64,000 nt of DNA from Haladaptatus sp. R4 (GTDB lineage Archaea > Halobacteriota > Halobacteria > Halobacteriales > Haladaptataceae): assembly GCF_001625445.1 (NCBI RefSeq), contig NZ_LWHG01000028.1:434001-498000 (forward strand). The letters are read 5' to 3'. A model generated the notes under the pieces. It ran no database searches and was not told the DNA's origin. It saw nothing but the letters and a program-made list of their open reading frames with translations. A program made the translations under genes and the position numbers. Positions 54,041 through 64,000 of the stretch are shown piece after piece (within the stretch, counting starts at the first letter, position 1; the number at the start of each line of letters is the position of its first letter).

Positions 54041-55201
54041 TCAACGCGACCGAAGCCGTCGTCGGTCCTCGGAGCGGATCGTTTCGTAGGCGGCGAGGAC
54101 GACGAGCAGCGCGGTGAGCAGGCCGAGACCGACGAAGGAGGGTACCACCATCATCACCGGAATCAACAGCACGGCGACGATTGCAACGATGGCACGCGCG
54201 ACGCTGATGGTGCCGTGGTCGCGGAACCGGTAGGCGTTGTGACCACAGAGATAGAGCGTTCCGCCGCCACAGAGCGCGACGGCGGGGATGGCGGTGAGCG
54301 GTTGGTTCGGGTGTGCCGCCGTCTGTTCGATGCCGAGCGCAATGAAAATGATGCCGCCCATCATCATGAGGTGGATGTAGCTGTAGGAATCGCGCGCCAG
54401 TATCGTCCGTTCACGGTCGGACGCCCGAGCGAACCGGCGTTCGGCGGCGAGCGTGATGTAATCGAAGTAGAGCCACCACAGCGTCGCGATGAGGGCGAAC
54501 CCGGAGAGGACGGCGAGCAGGAGTCGCGGGGTGATCGTCAACCCGGCCATGCCGACGCCGATGGCGACGATGGACTCGCCGAGCGCGATGATGATGATGA
54601 GTCGATGCCGCTCGACGAAGTGGCTCGCTTGGACGTGAAACCCTTCGACGCCTCGAAATTGCGCGATTCCGTAATCAACGACGATTGCGGCTGTCCACAG
54701 CGCCGCCTGTAGCGTCGTTCCGACGAACCCGGAGACGATGAGCAGGACGGGTGCTCCCAAAAATCCCGGTGCGAGGCGGAGTATCGCTTCCCGGGTCTCC
54801 GGCGGCGTGGTCAGTCCGTAGAGGACGACGTGCAACGCGCGAACGACGAAGTACGCGACGGCGAAGAATACCGCGTCCGTGGTGAACGCGCGCGGAATCG
54901 TCAGCGCGACGACGAGCATGGCCGCCATCGCCAACAGGATGACAAACCGCTCGGGGAGAATCTCCTCGACCGGAATGGCGTTCGTCAACCACGAGTAGCA
55001 GACCCACGCCCACCAGACGACGGCGAGTAGCGCGATTCCGCGAACGACGCCCGGCCACGACAGGTGATTCGTCAGAAAACCCGTGATCTGCGTGACGGCG
55101 AACACGAACACCAAATCGAAGAACAACTCCAGTGGCGTGACGTCCCCGTCGCGCTGTGTTTCGTCCACGGACTCGACATCTCTCGTACTCATCGTTGACA
55201 T
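54041..55201 (-). CDS. ltrA: LtrA family membrane protein (low-temperature requirement A)
   Basis: A 386-residue polytopic membrane protein of the LtrA family. The signature ELFFDLVFVFAVTQITGFLT is at about 25-45, and HFVERHRLIIIIALGESIVA near residue 196 is the characteristic central motif. About ten helices are visible, with a conserved WWAWVCYSWLTNAIPVEEI loop. LtrA was named from a Listeria low-temperature mutant; a transport role is suspected but the substrate is unknown. The start at 55201 (MSTMSTRDVES) or 55192 are both possible. Intact, and downstream of the membrane hydrolase-like gene by about 65 bp. Confidence 0.9.
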   Translation of the reverse strand: MSTMSTRDVESVDETQRDGDVTPLELFFDLVFVFAVTQITGFLTNHLSWPGVVRGIALLAVVWWAWVCYSWLTNAIPVEEILPERFVILLAMAAMLVVALTIPRAFTTDAVFFAVAYFVVRALHVVLYGLTTPPETREAILRLAPGFLGAPVLLIVSGFVGTTLQAALWTAAIVVDYGIAQFRGVEGFHVQASHFVERHRLIIIIALGESIVAIGVGMAGLTITPRLLLAVLSGFALIATLWWLYFDYITLAAERRFARASDRERTILARDSYSYIHLMMMGGIIFIALGIEQTAAHPNQPLTAIPAVALCGGGTLYLCGHNAYRFRDHGTISVARAIVAIVAVLLIPVMMVVPSFVGLGLLTALLVVLAAYETIRSEDRRRLRSR

Positions 55202-55266: not shown

Positions 55267-55842
55267 CTATCGAACCGCGCGACGGACCGTCACGACTAGC
55301 TCTCGCAAGACCGGAAAGCCGTCGTACGCCCAGAGCAGAAGCGTGCACGCCGAAATCGCGCCGACGAGAACGAAGTACGACGTGAAGTCGTGATGGACGA
55401 GGTGGGCGCGGTACTCGGCGAGGAGTTGCCCGACCGTTCCGGTGAACCCCGCGTCGTGGTCGGGTGGGAGCACGACTACCGGCCAGAGCATGTGTTCTAT
55501 ACCGTACCGGATTCCCTCGTTCATGTGTTCGAGTGCGTCACCGACGTTGTGCGAGAGGAATCCGATACCGAACGCGAGTCCCAATCGCGGGCGGGTCGTT
55601 CGCCGCGCGAGCGCGTGAGCGACGGCGATCACGAGGATGCTGGTGAACAGCGAGTGACCGAGCGCGTACCCGTTTCGAAAGACGCCGTACTGCCAACTCA
55701 ACGGCTTGTCGATGAGGTCTGGGACGACCGAGGCCACGGCGGCGACGACGATCGCTGCTCCACCCGGTGGTTCGTGATGACGGACGTGAACGAACGCGGA
55801 ATAACAGAGATAGGCGAAAATCGCGGATTCCCACGGCCACAT
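55267..55842 (-). CDS. YdjM/DUF457-like membrane-bound metal-dependent hydrolase
   Basis: A 191-residue integral membrane protein starting MWPWESAIFAYLCYSAFVHV. It has VVPDLIDKPLSWQYGVFRNG, YALGHSLFTSILVIAVAHAL and GFLSHNVGDALEHMNEGIRY. The conserved His and Asp residues (PDLIDK, GHSL, SHNVGD) mark it as a membrane metal-dependent hydrolase of the YdjM/DUF457 group, possibly acting on lipids. The start at 55842 is chosen because upstream residues lack family features and begin with the transmembrane helix. LtrA follows on the same strand. Intact. Confidence 0.83.
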   Translation of the reverse strand: MWPWESAIFAYLCYSAFVHVRHHEPPGGAAIVVAAVASVVPDLIDKPLSWQYGVFRNGYALGHSLFTSILVIAVAHALARRTTRPRLGLAFGIGFLSHNVGDALEHMNEGIRYGIEHMLWPVVVLPPDHDAGFTGTVGQLLAEYRAHLVHHDFTSYFVLVGAISACTLLLWAYDGFPVLRELVVTVRRAVR

Positions 55843-55946
55843 GGTTCGTCGTACGTCCGCTTCGGAGATACGTCTGTGGTGAGAAACGGTAGCGTTCGAC
55901 ACGACCGAAAAAACGAGATTGCGACCGGAAGACACCCCAATTCGCG

Positions 55947-58097: not shown

Positions 58098-58376
58098 CTA
58101 CGACAAGCCGACGATGGCGTAGATGAACAGGAAGCCGAAGTACAGCAGGACGAGCACGCCGAGCGCCTTGAGACGGAAGTGTTTGAGTTCCTCCGTCTCC
58201 TCCTCGTAGGTGTCGTAGAACTCCTCGACTTCACCCTCGGTGAGTTCGTCCCCGTGTTGCAACCCGCGGTGGAGCACCAGATACTCCTCACTCCGAAACG
58301 GGCAGCCACAGTAGGCACACTCGTAGGCCGATTCGCCGGACGGAACGTGGTAGTCTGTCGCTATCGTCATGGTCAT
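58098..58376 (-). CDS. zinc-finger membrane protein (DUF7410-like)
   Basis: A 92-residue protein starting MTMTIATDYHVPSGESAYEC. The motif CAYCGCPF with VLHRGLQHG is a C2H2-type zinc finger (Cys20, Cys23, His about 36 and 41). A helix with ELTEGEVEEFYDTYEEETEE follows and the last 25 residues (LGVLVLLYFGFLFIYAIVGL) form one transmembrane helix. The start codon overlaps the stop of the large membrane protein (ATGA), so the two are coupled. I recall DUF7410-type proteins with this make-up in haloarchaea; function unknown. Confidence 0.83.
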   Translation of the reverse strand: MTMTIATDYHVPSGESAYECAYCGCPFRSEEYLVLHRGLQHGDELTEGEVEEFYDTYEEETEELKHFRLKALGVLVLLYFGFLFIYAIVGLS

Positions 58377-59743
58377 GGTGGTGTGATCGTCGGTTGCGAA
58401 ACGACCCACATGCTCGTCATCGTGTACAGGATCATCACGGCGACGAGCGGGTACTGGCTCCGTATCGCCTGCATCCTGCTCGGAAACACCTCGTACGCCG
58501 TGGCGTGGGCCACCCACACCGCGAGCAGGTGGCCGATCAGGATGAACGCCATGTTGACCGCACTCCACCACGGCGGAAGGACGATGATGATCGGTTGAGG
58601 CGGGTTGATCGGGTTCGACAACATTCCCAAGAGGGTGGGTGAGAGCGAGAGGAAGTAGCCCACGTAGTGGGCGAGATGATACCCGACGGCGATGGGCAGG
58701 AGCGACGGCGCGAACTTCCGGGTGATCGCCGAGGTGGTGAGGTAGGTGTCCGCCGTGTTATGGGCCAATCGCGCGGCCAGTCGATACGCGCCGAGGAAGA
58801 GCAAGAACCCGCCAAGCAGCGCCGCGAGATAGGTGACGTGTCGCGGCACTCCGGCACCGGTCACCGCCCCTTCGATGTCCGCCCAGAGCGGCGTCGAAAC
58901 GAACCCGTCGTAGGTCGTCACCCACAGGATGGCGATGATGAACGCGACTTCGTCGATTCCCGTCACGTACTTCGTCTCGGTCAACCGTGCACCCGGCAGT
59001 TGAAACTCGAATCCCGACTCGGTTCGATGGAACGGGGCGACCCGCCCGTAGTAACGAAAGACGCGAGCCACGGGATCGACGGTGCTGAACCAGCGTTCGG
59101 TGGTAAATACGACGGTTCCCGCGAGCGTGATGAGCGAGTACGCGACGATGATATCGGCCAACATCTTGGGTTCGCTGGCGAGGGGGCTGAGCACTTCGAG
59201 CCAGATGAGCGCGAGCAGTCCGACGACGCTCGGCCACGCGCCCAATCGCTCGGGATAGTGAACGTCGAGGGAGGGAAGGAGGTTTCCGATGGTTCGCCAC
59301 GGGTTCAGCGCGGGCCACGTGTTGCCGAAGATGTACACCGTTGTGGTGTACGCGGCCCACCACCCGACCCAAACGAAGATGATGGCGATGTTTTCGCGCG
59401 ACGTGGGCGGACCGTACCATCCGGCGGCGATGATTCCGAGCAGAACGAGGACGCCGATGGCTTTCGTCGCGTGAATGACCGTGTCTGCCGACCACGACGT
59501 GAACCGTTGCCAGTCGTGAATCTCACGGATGAAGCTTCTGTCGGTGATGAAACTGGCGAGGAGGAACGACGCGCTCACCACGCCGCCGCTCGTGAGGATG
59601 AACAACCAGAGGGGGACGGACAGGGATTTCGATGAGCCCTCGATACTCGCCCCGTGTGCCAGCGCGTGACCGGAGAGGGCGATGAAGAGCCACAGCGCGG
59701 CGACCGCGCGAGTCGTGTACCGAATCGGTGTTCGGCGATGCAT
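58373..59743 (-). CDS. polytopic membrane protein of unknown function
   Basis: A 456-residue protein with about 12 hydrophobic helices and a likely N-terminal signal (ALWLFIALSGHALAHGASIE). Histidines recur (SGHALAHG, IHDWQR, GYHLAHYVGY), and FGNTWPALNPWRTIGNLLPS is reminiscent of actinobacterial membrane proteins labelled fenitrothion-hydrolase-like, a label I do not trust functionally. Its stop overlaps the start of the zinc-finger membrane protein. The His pattern would suit metal or haem handling, but this is inference. Divergent or lone promoter; the upstream gap holds an AAACGTGTGAGA direct repeat near 59812. Confidence 0.7.
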   Translation of the reverse strand: MHRRTPIRYTTRAVAALWLFIALSGHALAHGASIEGSSKSLSVPLWLFILTSGGVVSASFLLASFITDRSFIREIHDWQRFTSWSADTVIHATKAIGVLVLLGIIAAGWYGPPTSRENIAIIFVWVGWWAAYTTTVYIFGNTWPALNPWRTIGNLLPSLDVHYPERLGAWPSVVGLLALIWLEVLSPLASEPKMLADIIVAYSLITLAGTVVFTTERWFSTVDPVARVFRYYGRVAPFHRTESGFEFQLPGARLTETKYVTGIDEVAFIIAILWVTTYDGFVSTPLWADIEGAVTGAGVPRHVTYLAALLGGFLLFLGAYRLAARLAHNTADTYLTTSAITRKFAPSLLPIAVGYHLAHYVGYFLSLSPTLLGMLSNPINPPQPIIIVLPPWWSAVNMAFILIGHLLAVWVAHATAYEVFPSRMQAIRSQYPLVAVMILYTMTSMWVVSQPTITPP

Positions 59744-59866: not shown

Positions 59867-60400
59867 TCAGTGGTTCGGTTCTTCCGTCGGCGCTTCCATC
59901 CCCTCGATCTTCAGGATGAGGATGTTCCGGGTGTCGTCCTTGCCGTCGACGCGCCCCTCCACGACGAGCTTCGAGAGCGGCGTCGGGCCGACCTTCACCG
60001 CGTCGCCTTCGTGGAAATCACGGACGGAGCCACGGAGGTGAATCTCCGCGCGGCAGAGTTCGGGGTGGTGCACGCTCGTGAGGTCGATCTCCTCGATGTT
60101 GCTCTGCTCGACTTCCTCGCCGTTGTGGGTAAGTGGCACCTCGGCGGCGGAGTCGAGTTCTTGCGTGTCGAGTGCCTCGAAGGCCGTCGCGGTCGGCTTG
60201 TAGCCGCCCTTCGGGCCGGGAACACCTTCGACGAGTTGGAGCGCTTTCAGACTCTGCATCTGATTGCGAATCGTTCCTGGGTTGCGGTCGACTTCTTCGG
60301 CGATATCCTCGCCCTTGACCGCATCTTCTGTCTCACGGTGGAGATTTACGAGTGCCGTCAGTATCGTCTCCTGACTAGGCGTCAACTCAATACTAGACAT
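59867..60400 (-). CDS. TrmB/Rrf2-like winged-helix regulator with C-terminal ligand domain
   Basis: A 177-residue regulator. The N-terminal winged helix is SQETILTALVNLHRETEDAV, GEDIAEEVDRNPGTIRNQMQ and SLKALQLVEGVPGPKGGYKP. The C-terminal half (HHPELCRAEIHLRGSVRDFH, EGDAVKVGPTPLSKLVVEGR, NILILKIEGMEAP) looks like a small beta domain, probably for ligand binding or dimerisation; I recall homologues in haloarchaea annotated as Rrf2 or TrmB family. GGATTTAAGG about 25 bases upstream is a likely TATA box. It is divergent from arginase with about 150 bp between starts; a regulatory link to arginase is possible but unproven. Confidence 0.82.
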   Translation of the reverse strand: MSSIELTPSQETILTALVNLHRETEDAVKGEDIAEEVDRNPGTIRNQMQSLKALQLVEGVPGPKGGYKPTATAFEALDTQELDSAAEVPLTHNGEEVEQSNIEEIDLTSVHHPELCRAEIHLRGSVRDFHEGDAVKVGPTPLSKLVVEGRVDGKDDTRNILILKIEGMEAPTEEPNH

Positions 60401-61891: not shown

Positions 61892-64000
61892 TTATTCGTC
61901 GGCCGCGTCGTCTTCTATCGGTTCAGCTTCGTCCGGCATCGCGTCCGCCGCTTCCGCGGGGATCACGTCCACGCTCGCCACGCGGTCGTCCTCGTCCACG
62001 TCCATCACGGTGACGCCCATCGTGTTCCGACCGACTTCCGAGATGTCGGCCGCGCGAATGCGCATGATCTGACCGCGCTCGCTCATCATTACGAGGTGGT
62101 CGTCCTCGATGACGGTCTTGATCTCGGTGACCGGGCCGTTTCGCTCGCCGGTCTTGATGTCGATGAGGCCCTTGCCGTTGCGCGACTGGGCGCGGTACTC
62201 GTCGAGTTTCGTCCGCTTCCCGTAGCCGCGACGGGTGACGGTGAGCAGGTCGTCCACGTCGCCGTTCGCGGCGACCATCCCGACGACTTCGTCGTCGTCG
62301 TCGAGTTTGATGCCGTGAACACCGCGGGCGCTGCGACCCATCTCGCGGGCTTCCGTCTCGTCGAAGCGGATGGTCATCCCGTTCTTCGTGGAGATGAGCA
62401 GGTCCTTCGTTCCGTCCGTGACCTTCACGTCCATGAGTTTGTCGCCGTCTTCGAGTCGCGCGGCGATCTTACCGGTCGAGCGGATGTTCTCGAACTCCTT
62501 GGCTGCTGTCCGCTTGACGTAGCCCTGTTCGGTGACCATGCTCAACGACTCGTTCTCCTCGAACTCGTCCGTCGTGATGACCGCCGTGATGTCCTCGTCC
62601 CGCCCCAAATCGAGGATGTTGACGGCGGATTTGCCGCGCGCCGTTCGGGACATCTCCGGAATCTCGTAGGTCTTCAGGCGGTAGACCTGCCCGTGATTCG
62701 TGAAGCAGAGCAGGTAGTCGTGGGTGTTCGCGCGGAACACCTTCGAGATTTTGTCGTCCTCTTTGAGGTCCGCACCGATGATACCCTTGCCGCCGCGGCC
62801 CTGCGCGTCGAACCGCTCGATGGGCATCCGTTTGACGTAATCCTGCTCGGTGACGACGACGAACACGTCCTCCTCGGCGATGAGGTCCTCGCGGGTGACC
62901 TCCGACGTGTCCTCCACGATTTTCGTCCGCCGGTCGTCGGCGTACTTCTCCTTCATCTCCAGCAGTTCGTCCTTGATGACGGCGAGCAGTTCCGACTCGT
63001 CGTCGAGGATGGTCTTCAGACGTTCGATGCGCGCCGTCACGTCCTCGTATTCGGCCTCTATCTCCTCGGATTCGAGCGAGGTCAGGCTACCGAGTTGCAT
63101 CCGGACGATGTGTTCGGCCTGCTTCTCGGAGAAGTCGAACGTCTCCTGCAAGCCCGAACGCGCGCCGTCGCGGTCCTCGGCGTTGCGGATGAGTTCGACC
63201 ACGTCGTCGATACTTTCGAGCGCTCGAAGCGACCTTCGAGGATGTGAGCGCGTTCCTCGGCTTCGCCGAGTTCGTGCTCGCTCCGCCGTCGAACCACGTC
63301 GCGCCGGTGGTCGAGGTAGTGTTCGAGCAGTTCTTTTAGCGTCAGCACTTTCGGCTGTCCGTCTACAAGCGCCAACGAGATGATGCTGAACGTGCGTTCG
63401 AGGCGGTGGTTCAGCAGTTGGTTCTCGACGACCTCCGGAATCGCGTTCTGCTTGAGTTCGACCACGACGCGGATGCCGTCGCGGTCGGACTCGTCGCGCA
63501 GGTCGCGGATTCCCTCGATGGTGCCGTCGTTGACGTGGTCGGCGATTCGTTGGATGAGTCGCGCCTTGTTCGTCTGGAACGGCAGTTCCGTGATGACGAT
63601 TCGGTCGTCCTGTACCTCGTACTCGGCGCGAACGCGGAGGCGTCCCCGTCCGGTCGTGTAGGCCTGGTGGATGTCGTTGCGTCCGACGATGTTCGCGCCG
63701 GTCGGGAAGTCCGGTCCCTTGACGTGCTCCATCAGGTCCTCTATCGTCGCGTCGGGGTTGTCGATGAGTTCGACCGTCGCGTCGATGACTTCTCCCAGGT
63801 TGTGCGGCGGGATGTTCGTGGACATCCCGACCGCGATACCGGACGACCCGTTGATGAGGAGGTTCGGGACGGCCGACGGGAGGACTTCCGGTTCCTGCAA
63901 GCGCCCGTCGTAGTTGGGCTTGAACTCCACCGTGTCCATCTCGATGTCGGCGAGCATCTCCTCGGACAGCGAGTCCATCCGAGCCTCGGTGTACCGCATC
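61892..64000 (-). CDS. gyrA: GyrA, DNA gyrase subunit A (partial; frameshifted near 63222)
   Basis: GyrA breaks and rejoins DNA for gyrase. The window opens at the catalytic region: [20 protein letters not shown], where the Tyr is the DNA-cleaving residue, so only the N-terminal part is cut off. [20 protein letters not shown] and [20 protein letters not shown] follow. At about 63222 one G is missing; restoring it gives [20 protein letters not shown]. The C-terminal beta-pinwheel repeats ([28 protein letters not shown]-like [15 protein letters not shown]) run to 61892 and end in an acidic tail ([16 protein letters not shown]). Essential gene, so the frameshift is almost surely a sequence error. 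Confidence 0.95.

Follow-up and report, generated by a model that had tools for sequence, protein, structure and literature searches.

A gene pair linked to heme-copper oxidases in haloarchaea, encoding a membrane protein with some ten helices and a tail-anchored C2H2-finger protein, as a candidate copper-handling module

YcnJ of B. subtilis, which under copper limitation requires both His24 of its CopC domain and the transmembrane His295 (available portion of PMC13344008), is by analogy the closest functional parallel to the gene pair described here. Cox11 and Caa3_CtaG are alike to the pair in proposed job (copper for oxidases) and in gene linkage to oxidase subunits, but unlike it in sequence: 25 members of the large-protein family gave no match to either Pfam profile. 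Furthermore, neither Cox11 (PF04442) nor Caa3_CtaG (PF09678) was matched in 79 haloarchaeal genomes, the one studied here included, with controls positive in known bacteria. Other copper routes exist in haloarchaea, since CopD-type proteins are found in 64 of the 79 genomes at E <= 0.001 (31 above the cut-off) and Haloferax mediterranei is reported to have SCO chaperones (available portion of PMC9240420). A CopD-type protein was not found in the genome studied here, which is 96% complete; five long matches to the COX1 family are present there, some of which may be NO reductases.

The pair is encoded by Haladaptatus sp. R4, on contig NZ_LWHG01000028.1. The stretch analysed, referred to as the window, comprises 64,000 nucleotides (positions 434,001–498,000). 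The original prediction, made from the letters alone, described a large open reading frame overlapping by ATGA one of 92 residues; this was confirmed, with both on the minus strand (Table 1). The four-base overlap is exact in 43 of 71 related loci, for which start codons were picked by script. Upstream of the pair lies an HrcA/Rrf2-type winged-helix gene (59867–60400, minus strand) that could be a local regulator, with a homologue directly upstream in L077–L079 and L081 (Haladaptatus, Halomicrococcus) too, and more distant in L099. Downstream are two ordinary genes on the minus strand, encoding an LtrA family protein (54041–55201) and a YdjM-type membrane protein (55267–55935). A gyrA-like gene (61892–63999, minus strand) occupies two frames: its N-terminal part (63082–63999, open at the window edge) covers profile positions 89–345 and its C-terminal part (61892–63202) resumes at 355, with a frameshift near 63200–63225 that is either real or an assembly error.

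Table 1. Features of the gene pair, in window coordinates.
Feature	Position	Strand	Remarks
Large membrane protein gene	58373..59743	-	456 aa; signal-like helix and about ten membrane helices; archaeal-bacterial family without description
Small C2H2-finger protein gene, tail-anchored, DUF7410	58098..58376	-	92 aa counted from ATG
ATGA stop/start overlap of large and small gene (translational coupling)	58373..58376	-	sequence
His30 codon, predicted mature N-terminus behind A-x-A	59654..59656	-	kept in 86/86 rows outside metal clade, 0/9 inside
Asp279 codon, predicted outer end of sixth membrane helix	58907..58909	-	kept or lost jointly with His30: 86 rows both, 9 neither
His359 codon, intramembrane, invariant	58667..58669	-	alignments
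His405 codon, intramembrane, invariant	58529..58531	-	alignments
His413 codon, predicted inner part of ninth membrane helix, invariant	58505..58507	-	alignments
Met437 codon, in tenth membrane helix, almost invariant	58433..58435	-	conservation 1.0 (25 rows) and 0.97 (79 rows)
C2H2 finger, residues 20-41 of small protein	58254..58319	-	DUF7410 match; C20, C23, H36 and H41 invariant in 57 rows
Membrane segment, residues 71-89 of small protein	58110..58166	-	hydropathy; within continuous helix 47-91 of AlphaFold model

An AlphaFold model of the large protein (mean pLDDT 90.8, pTM 0.87; alignment of 79 sequences) contains an N-terminal signal-like helix (residues 6–32) followed by about ten membrane helices (45–66, 87–110, 119–136, 170–185, 192–213, 263–281, 301–331, 337–376, 393–419 and 423–449), rather than the twelve first proposed. 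The earlier description of the protein as His-rich, with repeated His-containing helices, was likewise overstated: it has 13 His in 456 residues (2.9%), and H30, H356, H359, H405 and H413 alone are kept in at least 95% of 79 haloarchaeal rows. Loop charges suggest an N-out/C-out topology by the positive-inside rule. His30 is predicted to form the mature N-terminus after signal cleavage in haloarchaea; A29 is retained in rows that lack H30, as expected for a cleavage-site residue. In three actinobacterial members the chosen start codons lie 10–19 residues ahead of the conserved His (two are nearer still as annotated), an N-terminus too short for this His to become N-terminal by cleavage.

The large protein matched no Pfam or NCBIfam model, and 25 of its relatives gave scattered weak matches to these libraries (best E 0.0065, one member), so the original statement that no function has been described holds for both libraries. 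A PDB sequence search gave no match, and a profile of the protein gave weak GPCR matches in the PDB (best E 0.0043). Foldseek returned no PDB match to the model at E <= 0.001, and the best VIA-align Z was 4.9. Scans of fold libraries (PDB, viral models) gave no clear match, which does not establish a new fold. One scan with a single large protein sequence gave no viral homologues. The literature searched, with the available portions of PMC9145763 and PMC12808453 included, names the pair nowhere, and no paper was found for the term DUF7410.

The small protein carries a C-x2-C-x12-H-x4-H finger and belongs to DUF7410 (PF24166; Pfam E 8.6e-8, above the cut-off); its match to zf-C2H2 (E 0.0057) falls under the cut-off. 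Hydropathy gives a single membrane segment, and an AlphaFold model (mean pLDDT 90.5) combines a beta-beta-alpha finger with an uninterrupted helix (residues 47–91), in agreement with the finger and single helix originally predicted. The likeness to DUF7410 resides in the 22-residue finger, which is all that the Pfam model covers; the membrane helix, the partner and the gene linkage are described here. Finger spacing is 12/4 in 68 of 71 loci (11–13 and 3–5 permitted by the script). All 15 plasmid records matching the small protein are haloarchaeal. Basic residues preceding the membrane segment suggest a cytosolic finger. Outside the finger, E60, L75 and Y79 are invariant in 14 rows; in 57 rows E60 remains invariant and L75 and Y79 are kept in at least 90%. 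The C2H2 fold of the model, together with the annotation 'DNA-binding protein' in some records, would fit a DNA-binding regulator that is tethered to the membrane and signals the state of copper or of the oxidase. However, one finger alone is rarely enough for specific DNA binding, no release mechanism was seen, and the invariant E60, L75 and Y79 hint instead at a partner in the membrane. We therefore consider a regulator quite unlikely.

Of 292 haloarchaeal genomes, 208 have a homologue of the large protein (E <= 0.001) and 203 the small protein; both occur in 200, neither in 81, the large protein only in 8 and the small protein only in 3, these last three resting on weak matches (E about 0.003). 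The coupling put forward in the original prediction is conserved. Rather than being separate in most genomes, the two genes lie within 200 bases of each other in 101 of 111 genomes, counted among the matches listed (the best 150 rows per search, with these 111 genomes present in both lists). In the 101, again among matches listed, the small gene is downstream on the same strand in 92, upstream in 8 and on the opposite strand in 1. The same 111 genomes have 22 further small-gene rows with no listed large gene alongside, of which 12 are second copies and 10 come from genomes for which no adjacent pair is listed; one of these genomes (G123) is in the window's own genus. Of 80 named haloarchaeal loci, 70 have the small gene immediately downstream, a count in which locus L143 was scored as lacking an adjacent small gene that is in fact present. 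L143:7992–9602 is a metagenome-assembled large copy frameshifted into the small gene's frame; the possibility that the two genes are naturally fused there was considered and ruled out, as the large frame shifts ahead of the small gene, and L143 was accordingly excluded from data set A4. The window's genome has a second, distant large copy (G000 contig C4:65966–67144; L002, L003; 29–38% identity), with no small gene in the flank retrieved.

The pair is strongly linked to heme-copper oxidase genes, a link that the original prediction missed. A full COX3 lies within 1.1 kb directly upstream of the large gene in 45 of the 80 named loci, divergently in 41; a first neighbour clustering that placed COX3 in 70 of 80 was set aside, having probably merged open reading frames of other frames. 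Raw matches near the 80 loci include COX2 in 22, COX1 in 17 and heme O/A synthase in 14, with representatives of the neighbour families checked in Pfam. DUF7546 (L112:12267–12959) and DUF7541 (L093:1914–2375), families without known function, also recur beside oxidase genes and the pair. COX3 of any strength is present in 287 of 292 genomes, so presence alone does not separate genomes, while match strength does. With a strong COX3 match defined as E <= 1e-26, a cut picked after inspection of the data, the large gene and COX3 are both found in 190 genomes, neither in 72, COX3 only in 12 and the large gene only in 18, related species not being independent; a cut of 1e-28 gives 184, 73, 11 and 24, respectively. 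The large gene tracks strong COX3 within genera (g18, two genomes with both and three with neither; g54, one and three; g47, three with both, one with neither and one with the large gene only), with g13 and g20 contrary (two and three genomes with strong COX3 that lack the large gene). Since 12 of the 84 genomes without the large gene have strong COX3, oxidases of this kind can do without it.

A quickly built tree (90 rows; outgroup branches long; letter make-up unusual in nine rows, the window's included) placed the window copy in a 60-row clade (support 87) in which 43 copies are COX3-linked. Its nearest sister set consists of six Halorussus-type copies, three with COX1 1.3–1.9 kb downstream. 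The window's copy, though placed in the COX3-linked clade, now has no oxidase gene beside it. In a 16-row clade (support 99*), 8 of 16 rows have other COX1 or COX2 genes in their neighbourhood; these are probably ba3-type, judging from the loci of Haloferax and from the cba genes that the available portion of PMC8305020 names. The Met437 position is T in two of six rows labelled ba3.

A third, nine-row clade (support 99*) is termed the metal clade here; the label drew on neighbour genes, the clade itself on the tree. It has a P19-like gene in 9 of 9 and a Cu-type ATPase in 3 of 9 (HMA domains seen in one), with an adjacent finger gene in 2 of 9 and COX1 nearby in 1 of 9. The original suggestion of a metal role is thus backed by gene context (heme-copper oxidase, copper-protein, P19-like and Cu-type ATPase genes). 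The P19-like genes have a PF10634 Fe2+ transport domain, which raises iron or another metal, at least in this clade, as the substrate in place of copper. P19 proteins bind copper too, however, and the Cu-type ATPase as well as the cupredoxin, PCuAC, CopC and pMMO-like contexts of bacterial members (below) speak for copper, making a different metal very unlikely.

Conservation divides the large protein into two putative sites. H359, H405, H413 and T441 are invariant across all 95 aligned rows, and M437 and Q430 almost invariant. All 86 rows outside the metal clade, including 7 bacteria, retain H30 and D279, and all nine inside it have lost them; the loss is a single event in one clade, in which F60, W125, W128, W129, T276 and W287 change as well in haloarchaea. 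This pattern suggests a dispensable outer capture site (H30/D279) and an indispensable membrane core (H359, H405, H413). That P19 takes over outer capture in the metal clade is only a guess, and the distant relative L073, which also adjoins a P19-like gene yet retains H30 and D279, counts against it. The invariant core also bears on whether the pair, moving no metal, could be a scaffold for assembly or an accessory subunit that is specific to oxidases and keeps their subunits together. Tight linkage to COX3 and other oxidase genes would be expected of such a protein, as would its being dispensable in part of the class; a buried His core kept in every clade would not, nor would a clade whose neighbours are P19-like and Cu-ATPase genes and in which a single row has COX1 nearby, or bacterial copies with copper partners. 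A scaffold is, on balance, unlikely.

Bacterial relatives of the large protein were found on plasmid records (23–28% identity), and hhalign of haloarchaeal versus bacterial members gave a probability of 100% (E 1.3e-62) over an almost full-length alignment. Among the 15 records examined, of at least 21, nine, including all eight actinobacterial records, have just upstream a gene for a small protein in which an H-x-H motif is invariant. A profile of these nine proteins picks up cupredoxins, among them the CuA domain of oxidase subunit II (E 2.9e-4); one searched singly against the PDB gave no match, and Pfam Cupredoxin_1 weakly matched one of the nine. In two actinobacterial records pMMO-like genes lie no more than about 5 kb away, one bacterial record has a CsoR-type regulator, CopC and COX3 near the large gene, and one has PCuAC. 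Five of the 15, all alphaproteobacterial (two unannotated), have no copper gene in the regions examined; the alphaproteobacterial copies L067, L069, L166, L171 and L172, near which no copper gene was seen, have as neighbours ABC/TRAP transporters or genes for nicotinate-type degradation. The label 'Fenitrothion hydrolase', which we take to be in use for bacterial members, is in no annotation of the records examined, and no paper was found pairing the term with 'membrane protein'.

These contexts also weigh against heme as the cargo. Several His within membrane helices could hold heme, and the heme O/A synthase genes in 14 of 80 neighbourhoods would suit a pair that delivers or inserts heme a/b into oxidases. 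However, pMMO, whose likely relatives lie near the two actinobacterial copies, requires copper and not heme, and the cupredoxin-like bacterial partner, the CopC/CsoR cluster and the P19/Cu-ATPase clade are all copper contexts. We accord a heme factor a low probability, similar to that of the scaffold.

We give about an even chance to the pair being a copper-handling module for heme-copper oxidases, with gene context and conserved residues making copper the likely metal. In such a module, the large protein would take up copper from outside and pass it into or through the membrane to the place where oxidase sites (CuB, perhaps CuA) are loaded. Movement is presumably inward, and the model suggests a path from His30/Asp279 outside, via His359/His405/Met437 mid-membrane, to His413 further in. 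The tail-anchored small protein, first proposed as a putative regulator or metal chaperone for the large one, would lie against it, where its finger, presumably at the cytosolic side, may play a role in copper handling as acceptor, gate or sensor. The pair would then be a widespread candidate, with named residues, for copper loading of haloarchaeal oxidases without detectable Cox11/CtaG; the bacterial relatives would extend the copper role to pMMO-like hydrocarbon monooxygenases, and a finger protein in membrane metal transfer, if true, would widen the known jobs of C2H2 domains. Possible, rather than probable, is a more far-reaching version: that copper uptake dedicated to oxidases arose twice, independently, among prokaryotes, the second time in a ten-helix archaeal-bacterial family that has its own outer capture site (His30 and Asp279), a His/Met relay and, in haloarchaea, a C2H2 finger as copper acceptor, and that fills the Cox11/CtaG gap.

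Kinship of the large protein with CopD (PF05425) was considered and ruled out, as none of 25 members matched at E <= 1 and hhalign against seven haloarchaeal CopD-type sequences gave a probability of 1.3%. The likeness to CopC-CopD and YcnJ, within the available portion of PMC13344008, is one of arrangement: an extracytoplasmic His copper site combined with a transmembrane His protein, serving a heme-copper oxidase. A small extracytoplasmic partner, cupredoxin-like in bacterial members of the large family, is a further resemblance; beyond the source named, the comparison with CopC draws on general knowledge. Unlike CopC-CopD, and without sequence relation to it, the pair would have its capture site in the membrane protein itself, and haloarchaea add a C2H2 protein. 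On our best reading, the pair would be an oxidase-dedicated copper uptake or metallation module that resembles CopC-CopD in its working and is unrelated to it in sequence.
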